A stretch of DNA of 64,000 nt, from positions 62,001-126,000 of the forward strand of contig NZ_FRBS01000001.1 of NCBI RefSeq assembly GCF_900142675.1. The letters run 5' to 3'. This stretch comes from Shouchella rhizosphaerae (GTDB lineage: Bacteria; Bacillota; Bacilli; Bacillales; Bacillaceae_D). Every line of letters begins with the position of its first letter. The first letter of the stretch is position 1. The position numbers were made by a program, and so were the translations under genes. Of this stretch, positions 60,360 through 64,000 are shown piece by piece. Under the pieces are notes generated by a model. It had not been told where the DNA came from. It saw only the letters and a list, made by a program, of their open reading frames with translations, and made no database searches.

Positions 60360-61769
60360 ATGAAACTTTTTATAAATGGCGAATGGGTTAGCGAAGAGCT
60401 GGATGTATTTGACGTGGTGAATCCGGCTACCGGCGAAGTTGTCGGCTCGGTGCCGAAAGGAGGAGCGAAGGAGGCAAAAGTCGCAGCCGATGGCGCCTAC
60501 GAGGCGTTGCCTGCATGGGCAGCGCGTTCAGCTTATGAACGAAGCGCCATATTAGAGGCGTGGCACGATCTTATTGCTGAACAGAAAGAGGAACTAGCTC
60601 GATTAATGACAATGGAACAAGGCAAACCAATTAATGAAGCGCGAGGGGAAATCGCCTATGCCAATTCATTTATAAAGTGGTATGCAGAAGAGGGCAAACG
60701 CATATACGGGGAAACCATTCCGGCTTCATCTCCTGATAAACGTTTATTTGTGGTAAAACAGCCTGTAGGTGTCATCGCTGCGATTACACCGTGGAACTTC
60801 CCGGCCGCTATGATTACGCGGAAAGTGGCACCGGCGTTGGCAGTAGGCTGCACAGTGCTGATCAAGCCAGCATCGCAAACGCCATTGACTGCATTGAAAC
60901 TAGCAGAGCTTGCTGAAAAAGCAGGATTGCCAAAAGGCGTGCTCCACGTTGTTGTTGGGTCAACAAGTGACATCTCAAAAGCGTGGCAGGAAGACGAGCG
61001 TGTCCGCAAGTTGACGTTTACCGGCTCTACGGAAATTGGCCGCACTCTTATGAGTGAAGCGGGGCAAACCGTTAAGAAAATCTCTTTGGAGCTTGGCGGG
61101 CATGCACCGGTCCTTGTGTTTGAAGATGCCGACATCGATAACGCTGTCCAAGAAACAATCGCCTCCAAATTCCGTAATGGCGGACAGACGTGCGTATGCG
61201 CCAATCGTATCTACGTGCATGAATCGATTGCTGAAGCATTCATAACGAAAATGAAACAAGCAGTCGAGCAGCTGAAAGTGGGGAATGGATTGAACGAGGA
61301 GACAGACATTGGTCCACTGATTGATGAAGATGCAGTTGATAAAGTCCTTACCCATATTCGAGATGCAAAAGACAAAGGGGCAGAAGTACTAACAGGAGGA
61401 AACAGCAGTGACGGGCTGTTTATTAAACCAACTGTCATAGCAGGAGTAACGGATGACATGGCATGCATGTCAGAGGAAACATTCGGCCCCCTCGCACCGA
61501 TATCTACTTTTAAGACAGAAGAAGAAGTCGTCAAACGGGCAAACGATACGATTTACGGGCTTGCCGCCTACTTATTTACCACTGATCTAAGCCGCGGGAT
61601 TCGAGTTGCAGAAAAGCTGGACTACGGGGTAGTCGGTTTAAACGACGGCGGCCCATCGGTTGCCCAGGCGCCATTTGGTGGTTTCAAGCAAAGCGGGATT
61701 GGCCGTGAGGGAGGCCATGAAGGGTTAGAGGAATTTCTTGAAAGCAAGTACGTTTCTTTAAAAATGTAA
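60360..61769 (+). CDS. gabD: NAD(P)-dependent succinate-semialdehyde dehydrogenase
   Basis: 469 residues, ATG 60360 after AAAGGAG. Aldehyde dehydrogenase fold: PWNFPAAMITRKVAPALAVG, TFTGSTEIG, catalytic Glu in LELGGHAPVLVFEDAD, catalytic Cys in FRNGGQTCVCANR. The CVC and the ending NDGGPSVAQAPFGGFKQSG then GREGGHEGLEEF are typical of GabD. It oxidises succinic semialdehyde to succinate in GABA use. No GABA transaminase gene is adjacent, so the exact aldehyde is less certain. Confidence 0.88.
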   Translation: MKLFINGEWVSEELDVFDVVNPATGEVVGSVPKGGAKEAKVAADGAYEALPAWAARSAYERSAILEAWHDLIAEQKEELARLMTMEQGKPINEARGEIAYANSFIKWYAEEGKRIYGETIPASSPDKRLFVVKQPVGVIAAITPWNFPAAMITRKVAPALAVGCTVLIKPASQTPLTALKLAELAEKAGLPKGVLHVVVGSTSDISKAWQEDERVRKLTFTGSTEIGRTLMSEAGQTVKKISLELGGHAPVLVFEDADIDNAVQETIASKFRNGGQTCVCANRIYVHESIAEAFITKMKQAVEQLKVGNGLNEETDIGPLIDEDAVDKVLTHIRDAKDKGAEVLTGGNSSDGLFIKPTVIAGVTDDMACMSEETFGPLAPISTFKTEEEVVKRANDTIYGLAAYLFTTDLSRGIRVAEKLDYGVVGLNDGGPSVAQAPFGGFKQSGIGREGGHEGLEEFLESKYVSLKM

Positions 61770-61799: not shown

Positions 61800-62314
61800 A
61801 ATAATCTATTAATTAAATTAATAGTGATCTAGTAAATTGTATGTAATAAAAGTATGATAGAATACTAATATGGATGAAAACCCCAAAACAAGCATGATTA
61901 ATAAAGAATTGTCAACAAAAAAAGTGAATATTTAATCAAAAAACTCTTGTAATTAAATTAATAGTAGTATAATCTATTAATAGGTACTAGATTTACTTTG
62001 AAGTAAATATATTAATAATGATTAAAGCAACTACGAATAAGTTCAGTTCTAATCATAATAAGTTTGTTTGCATTTAAAATTGCAAATATTTAATATTTAT
62101 TTATGCTTTTAGTTATTCTAATTGCTATAACACTGTAGTAAATTTTAGGATAAATTAATGGAAGGGGTGGAATAAAGTGAACTATAGCAATGTGTTCCAA
62201 ATTGAGCATACTTCGGCCATTTCCCGGTGACGGAGACTTTACTAGAAAACATCATGACTAGAATAAGAACATTTGACGCTAGAATGGGATTTTGCGGCAA
62301 AATAGGAGGGCAGC
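61800..62314. other. AT-rich gap of about 515 bp before the ketoacyl synthase
   Basis: Very AT-rich. TAATTAAATTAATAGT occurs twice (61810-61825 and 61950-61965) and a CTATTAATAG dyad follows, candidate regulator sites. A tiny reading frame is at 62177-62230. Composition differs sharply from the gabD side. Confidence 0.55.
62177..62230 (+). CDS. Possible 17-residue leader peptide
   Basis: GTG 62177 follows AAGGGGTGG at 62163-62170. It encodes MNYSNVFQIEHTSAISR and stops at TGA 62228-62230, overlapping a GTG that opens a further 38-codon frame running into the next gene. Good ribosome site, but could be chance. Confidence 0.25.
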   Translation: MNYSNVFQIEHTSAISR

Positions 62315-63304
62315 ATGTATTCAAGCTACATCAAATCGATTGAATTTTTTGTTCCTTATAATAAAGTTCGAAACGATCCGGAAAGCAAACTAACTAAAAA
62401 AATCGGTATCCATTCACGACATATTGCTGGAGAAGATGAACTTGCTTCAGATTTAGCTTGTGAAGCTGCCCGAAAACTGTTTGATTCAAATGTATGCAAA
62501 CCTGAAGATATCGATTTTTTATTATTCTGTACACAGTCACCTGATCATTACTTGCCTACGACTGCTTGTTTAATTCAAGATCGAATGGGTTTGCCAACTT
62601 CCTGCGGGGCTTTAGATATAAATCTTGGTTGTTCAGGTTTTGTGTATGGTTTATCGCTCGCAAAAGGATTGATTGAAACTGGAACAGCAAAAAACGTTCT
62701 ATTGATTACTGCAGATACCTACAGTAAATTTATTCATCCAAAAGACTACTCGGTCACAGAATTATTTGGAGACGGTTCAGCTGCTACTTTAATAACTAGG
62801 TGTGAGCGACCTCATTCTTCTGTAGGGCCTTTTGAATTCGGTACTGATGGAAGCGGCGGCAAGAATCTCATTGTTCCTGCTGGTGGAATGCGCGAACGAC
62901 AAACAACTGACTCACTAATGGAACAGCAAGATGATAAAGGCAATATCCGTTCCAGAGTAAATTTGTATATGAATGGTTATAAAATATTTAAATTTGCGTC
63001 GAAAGAAGTAACGAGCTGTGTTAGAAAATTTCTTCAGCAGAACAACGAGACTATTACTGACTATGATTATTTTGTTTTTCATCAAGCTAATGAACATATG
63101 ATGAAGGCGCTACGGGAGAAATTAGAAATTCCCAAAGACAAGTTCTCCATTCAACTACGTGAGTACGGTAATACAGTCTCCTCTACTATCCCAATAGCCC
63201 TGTACCATGAATCAAGGGATAGGAAAATAAAACGAGGAGACAAGCTTATGTTAGTTGGTTTTGGGGTCGGATATTCATGGTCTGTTTGTTCTGTTATTTG
63301 GTAA
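62315..63304 (+). CDS. Ketoacyl-ACP synthase III-like enzyme (FabH family), stand-alone
   Basis: 329 residues, ATG 62315 after AGGAGGG. The thiolase-fold triad is intact: Cys in DINLGCSGFVYGLSLAKGL, His in FVFHQANEHMMKAL and Asn in REYGNTVSSTIPIALY. ELFGDGSAATLI and a final GFGVGYSWSVCSVIW also match KAS III. It lacks neighbouring fab genes. The AT-rich DNA and the methyltransferase downstream suggest a secondary-metabolite or acyl-signal pathway rather than bulk fatty-acid synthesis. It condenses an acyl-CoA/ACP starter with malonyl-ACP or an alternative nucleophile. Confidence 0.85.
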   Translation: MYSSYIKSIEFFVPYNKVRNDPESKLTKKIGIHSRHIAGEDELASDLACEAARKLFDSNVCKPEDIDFLLFCTQSPDHYLPTTACLIQDRMGLPTSCGALDINLGCSGFVYGLSLAKGLIETGTAKNVLLITADTYSKFIHPKDYSVTELFGDGSAATLITRCERPHSSVGPFEFGTDGSGGKNLIVPAGGMRERQTTDSLMEQQDDKGNIRSRVNLYMNGYKIFKFASKEVTSCVRKFLQQNNETITDYDYFVFHQANEHMMKALREKLEIPKDKFSIQLREYGNTVSSTIPIALYHESRDRKIKRGDKLMLVGFGVGYSWSVCSVIW

Positions 63305-63533
63305 ATCGTATCCGAATCTAAAAAAGAAAACTTCTGGATGGGTTCGAGGCGTTTGAAAACTTACAAACTAAACGATTTACAAACCTTTAATCTGTAAAAT
63401 GCCCGTCTGTTTTAACCGAATATTAGTATTTTTGAAATTGTTTTTGTTTAACTTTGTACTTTAAGGAGCTGGTAAACCGTTTATAGATAAACCGTGGATC
63501 TGTAGCAAAGTTCTTAAGAGGAGGAAAACGTAC

Positions 63534-64000
63534 ATGGAAACCAATTTTATTCGAAATTTACTTAATAATATTGAAACGAAAATTAATCAAGGTCAATACT
63601 CTGAGGCTTTTAGCACTCTTTATGATGAATTAAGAAACATACGTCACCATTCTTCCACAGAAGATTGGAAGCAATTTATCTCTCAATATCGTGAGCATCC
63701 AGTAAGTGCATTTTTCTGGCAAGAGCCACTATCTCGTCGAGCATTTGAAAAACCCCGAGGCTATGCAGGTGATCCGATAATGCTGGACTTGCAGTATGAC
63801 TATGAAAAATTGGAATCGTCACCCTACGAGAATGAACAAGCAGAAATTTCCGATCTTCTTTATTACGACATAAACCGTATAGGTCATGCAAATCATGCTA
63901 ATCGAGAAAGAAGGCGGATACTTTCCAAAATGATTAATCAAACATCAGAACGTGTTGCGAATCCTTCTATTCTCTCAGTCGCTTGTGGCCATTTAAGGGA
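63534..64000 (+). CDS. PhcB-like class I SAM methyltransferase, 3' end beyond window
   Basis: ATG 63534 behind GAGGAGG; 155 codons are open to the window end. After a helical N-terminus (NNIETKINQGQYSEAFSTLY), SRRAFEKPRGYAGDPIMLDL is the signature of methyltransferases related to the 3-hydroxypalmitic acid methyl ester (PhcB-type) enzymes. Motif I begins at the edge (ILSVACGHLR). It probably methylates an acyl product of the adjacent ketoacyl synthase, 229 bp upstream; the intervening DNA holds no gene. Function is inferred from family and context. Confidence 0.75.
   Translation, partial: METNFIRNLLNNIETKINQGQYSEAFSTLYDELRNIRHHSSTEDWKQFISQYREHPVSAFFWQEPLSRRAFEKPRGYAGDPIMLDLQYDYEKLESSPYENEQAEISDLLYYDINRIGHANHANRERRRILSKMINQTSERVANPSILSVACGHLR

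Follow-up and report, generated by a model that had tools for sequence, protein, structure and literature searches.

An allelically variable acyl/polyketide-type gene island with a PhcB-related methyltransferase in the Shouchella clausii group

The right-hand end of the 64,000-nucleotide stretch of DNA analysed here (the window; bases 62001-126000 of contig C4 in a genome of 4.24 Mb) holds the first genes of an acyl/polyketide-type island that differs between strains. With moderate confidence, we read this locus as what survives, at the 5' end, of a specialised-metabolite island that occupies, in the Shouchella clausii group, the site between an aldehyde dehydrogenase (ALDH) gene and a PTS-sucrose operon. 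Horizontal transfer is its probable origin, and an undescribed small molecule of acyl origin its probable product; enzymes of familiar kinds come together in it in a new combination. Direct observation covers which genes are present, their catalytic motifs and homologies, the divergence of alleles at a single site, and a deletion.

Gene content and upstream region of the locus

In the window genome the gene order is KAS III-MT-ADC-SDR remnant-BVMO (Table 1). The preliminary description, made from the window, had recognised a stand-alone FabH-type enzyme with a full triad, followed by a methyltransferase bearing RAFEKPRGYAGD, in AT-rich DNA with repeated sites and a tiny upstream reading frame, and had expected the locus to continue. 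Almost all of this is borne out. KAS III contains both Pfam domains (ACP_syn_III, 8.5e-25; ACP_syn_III_C, 2.4e-29) and the Cys-His-Asn triad of such enzymes, located by motif as C106, H256 and N286; RAFEKPRGYAGD forms residues 69-80 of the methyltransferase; G+C content is 28.3% in the intergenic region after ALDH, 37.9% in KAS III and 38.2% in MT, versus 45.45% for the window; and beyond the window end MT is completed and ADC, the SDR remnant and BVMO follow. It is 'stand-alone' that has to be given up, given that same-strand genes carry on beyond the window. A known capsule, siderophore or fatty-acid cluster, which had been named as grounds for abandoning the idea of a new metabolite, was not found among the downstream genes, although the allele of S. 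tritolerans, described below, is of type II PKS/FAS-like kind. The window allele showed no dedicated ACP, thioesterase or transporter.

Table 1. Features of the locus. L002 is the sequence that continues past the window end; window position = L002 position + 59999.
Feature	Coordinates	Strand	Remarks
Aldehyde dehydrogenase (ALDH)	60360..61769	+	Succinate-semialdehyde type by eye; left border, outside the island
Perfect palindrome CTATTAAT-TAA-ATTAATAG	61806..61824	.	Perfect over both arms; putatively operator-like
Second ATTAATAG half-site, then CTATTAATAG	61950..61983	+	Putatively operator-like
29-codon upstream frame	62254..62343	+	Overlaps the KAS III start
KAS III, 329 aa	62315..63304	+	Triad C106-H256-N286
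PhcB-related class I SAM methyltransferase (MT)	63534..64000 in the window, end 64478 outside	+	Complete protein 314 aa
Acetoacetate decarboxylase (ADC)	L002 4482-5222	as KAS III/MT
Short-chain dehydrogenase (SDR) remnant	about L002 5312-5606	as KAS III/MT
Flavin monooxygenase, Baeyer-Villiger type (BVMO)	L002 5681-7339	as KAS III/MT
PTS/GH3/GH32 sugar operon	begins L002 7720		After BVMO; unrelated to the island

Against NCBIfam models KAS III scores 272.5 with PRK09352 (cut-off 249) and 248.7 with TIGR00747 fabH (cut-off 292.1), and its closest solved chain is 3gwa (E 2e-100), from Burkholderia pseudomallei. That it might be the sole KAS III of its genome was rejected, a further KAS III-like gene lying on contig C11 (34-42% identical, in two pieces). 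ADC belongs to PF06314 (4e-83) and matches the solved clostridial acetoacetate decarboxylase 3bh2 over its full length (E 6e-114), with YPKKLG at residues 113-118 and both YPKK lysines, K115 and K116, present. BVMO matches phenylacetone monooxygenase 1w4x (E 2e-187) and carries, at residues 168-179, the stretch FQGEMYHTGRWP, which fits the type I Baeyer-Villiger fingerprint, FxGxxxHxxxW(P/D). Against a biosynthetic reading, enzymes related to ADC and BVMO serve ordinary catabolism elsewhere; the Niallia and Streptantibioticus plasmid stretches around close ADC relatives gave no KAS III, MT or BVMO match (E 1e-4). As for the SDR, residues 173-272 are left, in two frames.

Upstream of KAS III, TAATTAAATTAATAGT occurs exactly at 61810 and 61950, one copy lying within the perfect palindrome. 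With up to two mismatches allowed the count is three, versus 0.12 on average in shuffled sequence; the third match is the first read on the other strand, its site being palindromic. The palindrome has a single copy in the genome (up to one mismatch allowed); S. clausii AKU0647 and S. tritolerans retain both arms, even though the latter has another first gene. Conservation of the upstream stretch may reflect no more than backbone shared between the strains, since the flank next to it is conserved too. A promoter scan of the upstream region returned 5 promoter-like sites versus 7.1 in shuffles, none of which stood out, and a clear promoter was accordingly rejected.

The small upstream frame has a counterpart of 29 codons at the matching place in AKU0647, where it is preceded by AAGGAGGTGA, a strong ribosome-binding site absent from the window copy. 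A meaningful upstream peptide was rejected on account of poor conservation between the two strains and of the missing ribosome-binding stretch in the window copy. Absence of this site before the frame could alter KAS III expression in the window genome.

The methyltransferase family and its neighbourhoods

MT is a Methyltransf_25 protein by Pfam (8e-8); an NCBIfam scan gave no model above its cut-off, and identity as a phosphoethanolamine methyltransferase was rejected, the matches being weak and local. The structural search that the preliminary description had proposed places the AlphaFold2 model (mean pLDDT 91.6) among class I methyltransferases, the N-terminal part being helical. Among solved structures the top match is 3ocj (Z 20.8, rmsd 3.0, covering 248 of the 314 residues), a Bordetella parapertussis 'possible exported protein'; all further entries have Z of at most 16.8. 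MT is homologous to a methyltransferase on a Paraburkholderia graminis plasmid (28% over 272 aa, E 7e-27, in a single pairwise comparison), whose N-terminus is longer and whose ACGHLRE stretch is different. The Paraburkholderia gene heads an operon of the order methyltransferase-histidine kinase-response regulator-response regulator (MT-HK-RR-RR).

The METHYLTRANSFERASE family to which MT belongs has 342 relatives across 84,980 named genomes, the best 80 of which were kept. MT itself is present in 3 of 41 family genomes, all Shouchella, and among 398 sampled phylum genomes in the window genome only (both at E ≤ 1e-10); outside Shouchella the top relative among the best 80 of 342 is 41% identical. 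At 44 of these 80 loci (46 of 82 when two plasmid loci are added) an ORF of a signal-transduction cluster, that is, of kinase/response-regulator or GGDEF-EAL kind, stands at most 400 bp away from the MT match, where clusters were formed by single linkage from greedily chosen ORFs and gaps were measured to the tblastn match. By record titles the 80 loci are clumped, with 17 from Myxococcota and 28 of Rhizobiales type, so that independent associations with signalling must be far fewer than 44. The domain scan of these neighbours covered nine representative proteins, in one of which (from L057) the receiver domain is below the Pfam cut-off. They include a protein of Corallococcus with protein kinase, AAA, GAF and histidine kinase domains, one of similar make-up from Pirellula that has a receiver domain, proteins combining receiver and HD domains, and, from Rhizobium and Methylobacterium, GGDEF-EAL proteins.

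Acyl-chain enzymes are also seen beside members of the family. MT relatives in Deinococcus and Rubrobacter have genes for FeeM-type N-acyl amino acid synthases nearby, and in a Planctomycetota MAG (L060:1-1612) a KAS III gene overlaps the PhcB-related MT gene, the contig beginning inside the KAS III gene; this KAS III was part of one search profile but was also found independently (E 1e-24). Among the 80 loci, KAS III stands beside MT in AKU0647 and this MAG only, and ADC or BVMO at two Shouchella loci only. Taken together, these neighbourhoods hint that the family may act on acyl-derived small molecules, often in signalling.

Two arrangements among these relatives are worth recording in their own right. 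At Myxococcota loci (L025, L028, L034 and others) the PhcB-related MT gene converges on a large gene that belongs to the protein kinase-AAA-GAF-histidine kinase cluster and lies within 40 bp of the MT match, the domain scan covering L025; the two could be an undescribed signalling pair. On a Deinococcus actinosclerus plasmid (L106:3518-6876), a desaturase-FeeM-methyltransferase-PhcB-related methyltransferase operon is a candidate N-acyl signal cluster.

How far, then, does the Shouchella locus itself resemble a signalling locus? The preliminary description had pointed to a PhcB-like methyltransferase and to possible downstream sensor genes. The family lead holds to the extent that MT is homologous to the methyltransferase of a phcBSRQ-like operon and has relatives near signalling genes; an adjacent sensor is what the locus lacks. 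A domain scan of the genes as far downstream as L002 14586, and a judgement by eye of those upstream, turned up neither a sensor gene nor a kinase or response regulator next to MT; the only regulator seen is of AraC type, beyond the sugar operon. One rival reading is a PhcB-like signal locus, in which KAS III and MT would make a methylated acyl autoinducer and ADC and BVMO would only adjust or degrade it. The homology, the 44 loci with signalling ORFs, the overlapping genes of the MAG, the FeeM genes and the strongly allelic character of MT between genomes with near-identical flanks would all suit such a locus. We nevertheless consider it unlikely: the neighbours include no kinase gene and, as regulator, the distant AraC-type gene only, the 80 loci are clumped, the likeness is judged through the Paraburkholderia protein and not Ralstonia PhcB itself, and Phc systems, in the accessible part of PMC8578825, comprise neither ADC nor BVMO.

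Alleles at the ALDH-PTS site

The favoured reading, an acyl-metabolite island, draws on what is found at the same site in related strains. In a survey of 41 genomes of the family, ADC was found in three (1e-20) and a KAS III of the window type in two (1e-60), all of one genus, the island relatives being S. clausii AKU0647 and S. tritolerans FJAT-45399. Of 13 genus genomes, four (window, AKU0647, S. tritolerans and a fourth, G029) have an ALDH at least 96% identical (96% for the orthologues in the three other genomes with island or remnant), a PTS gene at least 98% identical and the oxidase between the two, a count that covers the sites of these close ALDH copies and not those of more distant copies in other genomes.

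The AKU0647 allele reads KAS III-MT-ADC-KAS II-SDR-BVMO, with an intact SDR and an open BVMO frame of 552 aa, the counted stop being the frame end by coordinates. The window is collinear with it save for 1.9 kb, comprising KAS II and most of the SDR, that is missing in the window. In G029 the site is reduced to a 101-bp scrap of MT and a frameshifted BVMO. The S. tritolerans allele (L010:8982-20000 on into L016) is without KAS III and reads MT-ADC-FabG-ACP-KS-CLF-FabZ-PPTase-DH-FabI-SDR-BVMO.

The S. tritolerans allele deserves attention as a compact type II PKS/FAS-like cluster (KS, CLF-like partner, ACP, FabG, FabZ, PfaC-like dehydratase, FabI and PPTase) joined to MT-ADC-SDR-BVMO. When motifs are lined up by eye, its CLF has Gln at the position of the KS active-site Cys. 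The DH shares 47% identity with a portion of a large Azospirillum protein, PUFA-synthase-like by eye; a search for this dehydratase in 398 phylum genomes found none, which says little given that no known positive was among them.

Between AKU0647 and S. tritolerans, dS is 0.012 in the ALDH flank and 0.72 in ADC, and the two MTs are 60% identical. A near-identical flank next to very different island genes suggests that allelic replacement, and not vertical drift, lies behind the divergence of the two islands. The island is furthermore a mosaic: the window oxidase is nearer to its S. tritolerans counterpart (93% identity) than to the one in AKU0647 (81%), whereas for the window MT it is AKU0647 that is nearer (81%, versus 63% for S. 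tritolerans). Given the differing alleles at one site and the remnant in G029, this is a variable island that is losing genes in the window genome.

With two genes lost, the window copy may be non-functional, and the deletion of KAS II and most of the SDR, together with the scrap and frameshift of G029, would fit a dead remnant in the course of being lost. As an account of the locus we find this doubtful. The frames of KAS III, MT, ADC and BVMO are all intact, and dN/dS between window and AKU0647 is 0.13 for KAS III, 0.24 for MT, 0.11 for ADC and 0.24 for BVMO, values that average over pre-deletion time too and place the four shared genes under constraint for at least much of their divergence. 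For the metabolite of such an island, the fuller alleles of S. tritolerans and AKU0647 make the product tractable to look for, and chain-making modules swapped at one site between near-identical flanks amount to a natural experiment in biosynthetic evolution.

Possible chemistry and comparison with known systems

From the enzymes we infer in what order the steps run, how long the chain is, which group MT methylates and whether the product might serve as a signal or an antibiotic, the reactions of ADC, BVMO and SDR being drawn from the known chemistry of their families. A condensing enzyme (KAS III, KAS III with KAS II, or a KS-CLF type II PKS, depending on the allele) would form a 3-oxoacyl thioester, release of which would yield a free 3-oxo acid. 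The acetoacetate-decarboxylase-type enzyme would then take off CO2 to give a methyl ketone, into which the phenylacetone-monooxygenase-type enzyme would insert oxygen, producing an acetate ester. Reduction of a ketone would fall to the SDR, which the window genome has lost. The PhcB-related MT could methylate an acyl-derived carboxylate or hydroxyl and may give a separate methyl-ester product. It is the hardest enzyme to place in the route because a methylated acid would block decarboxylation: the methyl ester of a 3-oxo acid would be no substrate for ADC, which makes it unlikely that MT and ADC act in simple series. MT may instead work on another branch, on a hydroxyl, or for a second product. 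The combination of decarboxylase and Baeyer-Villiger chemistry thus suggests a route from 3-oxoacid through methyl ketone to acetate ester, and not simply a methyl ester. The methylated acyl signal or small metabolite first proposed for this locus survives in part: both enzymes are real and the MT homology stands, but ADC and BVMO imply more than ester methylation.

The relatives of KAS III bear on chain length. Its subfamily occurs in six other genomes among 398 sampled from the phylum (E ≤ 1e-70), with FabG-like SDR genes beside it at five of the six loci (L117-L121 among them), where the sugar/glycan-type surroundings, ACP and sugar genes were recognised by eye; on a Burkholderia glumae plasmid, vioA, KAS III, ACP and SDR lie together. 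The subfamily thus also serves other kinds of cluster and does not by itself indicate ADC/BVMO chemistry. KAS III beside FabG-like genes in sugar/glycan settings fits a short 3-oxo/3-hydroxy acyl product, which keeps a C4 alternative alive. We nonetheless find it rather improbable that the locus runs a short-chain route, in which KAS III would make acetoacetyl-ACP, ADC would turn acetoacetate into acetone, BVMO would turn acetone into methyl acetate and MT would be incidental: well as this suits the closeness of ADC to acetoacetate decarboxylase and the company that KAS III keeps, S. tritolerans joins MT-ADC-SDR-BVMO to a chain-elongating and -reducing set that would be needless for acetone.

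Within the favoured reading of an acyl-metabolite island, a bolder version can be formulated, though we would bet against it: PhcB-family MT, decarboxylase and BVMO may be a constant tailoring core, combined at one chromosomal site with interchangeable chain-making engines so that strains of the Shouchella clausii group make different variants within one new class of acyl metabolite, used for signalling or competition. If true, Bacillota would gain their first example of PhcB-related signal chemistry. More generally, a methyltransferase family whose retrieved members often stand beside sensor kinases and cyclic-di-GMP enzymes is now linked to dedicated acyl-chain synthases, which suggests what its substrates may be.

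Individual enzymes of the locus have known counterparts in other settings. ADC resembles 3bh2 in its full-length match and retained YPKK, but the Shouchella enzyme belongs to a biosynthetic island and not to a solvent operon; similarly, BVMO resembles 1w4x in overall match and type I fingerprint but, unlike it, shares one island with ADC. The KAS III proteins of Burkholderia glumae pBGF3 and of Deinococcus plasmids are 39.8-51.6% identical over 92-100% of the protein and have an annotated ACP gene adjoining, in glycan or NRPS/PKS surroundings, whereas the window locus is without ACP.

With Ralstonia phcBSRQ the Shouchella locus shares acyl chemistry and a homologous MT family, as judged via the Paraburkholderia graminis MT-HK-RR-RR operon and not via Ralstonia PhcB. 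It differs from the Phc operon in having no kinase genes and in the addition of KAS III, ADC and BVMO; the Shouchella and Paraburkholderia MTs differ in the ACGHLRE stretch and share 28% identity only. The order of the Paraburkholderia operon resembles phcBSRQ as given in the accessible part of PMC8578825; there, Ralstonia PhcR is a receiver plus kinase, whereas its Paraburkholderia counterpart is a receiver only.

Within limited coverage of the literature, no paper was found that names the Shouchella locus, and no type II PKS cluster with MT-ADC-SDR-BVMO tailoring was found; antiSMASH cluster types for the former genus are given in PMC8543038, and Firmicutes are already among the phyla with KS-CLF hits in PMC10132072, both as far as the accessible parts of these papers go. 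Highly reducing type II PKS clusters consist of KS-CLF, ACP, KR and DH according to the accessible part of PMC10698177. The window allele lacks the KS-CLF pair, ACP, KR and DH of this set, and ER and PPTase too, whereas the S. tritolerans allele of the same site has KS, a CLF-like partner, ACP, KR and DH, together with ER and PPTase.
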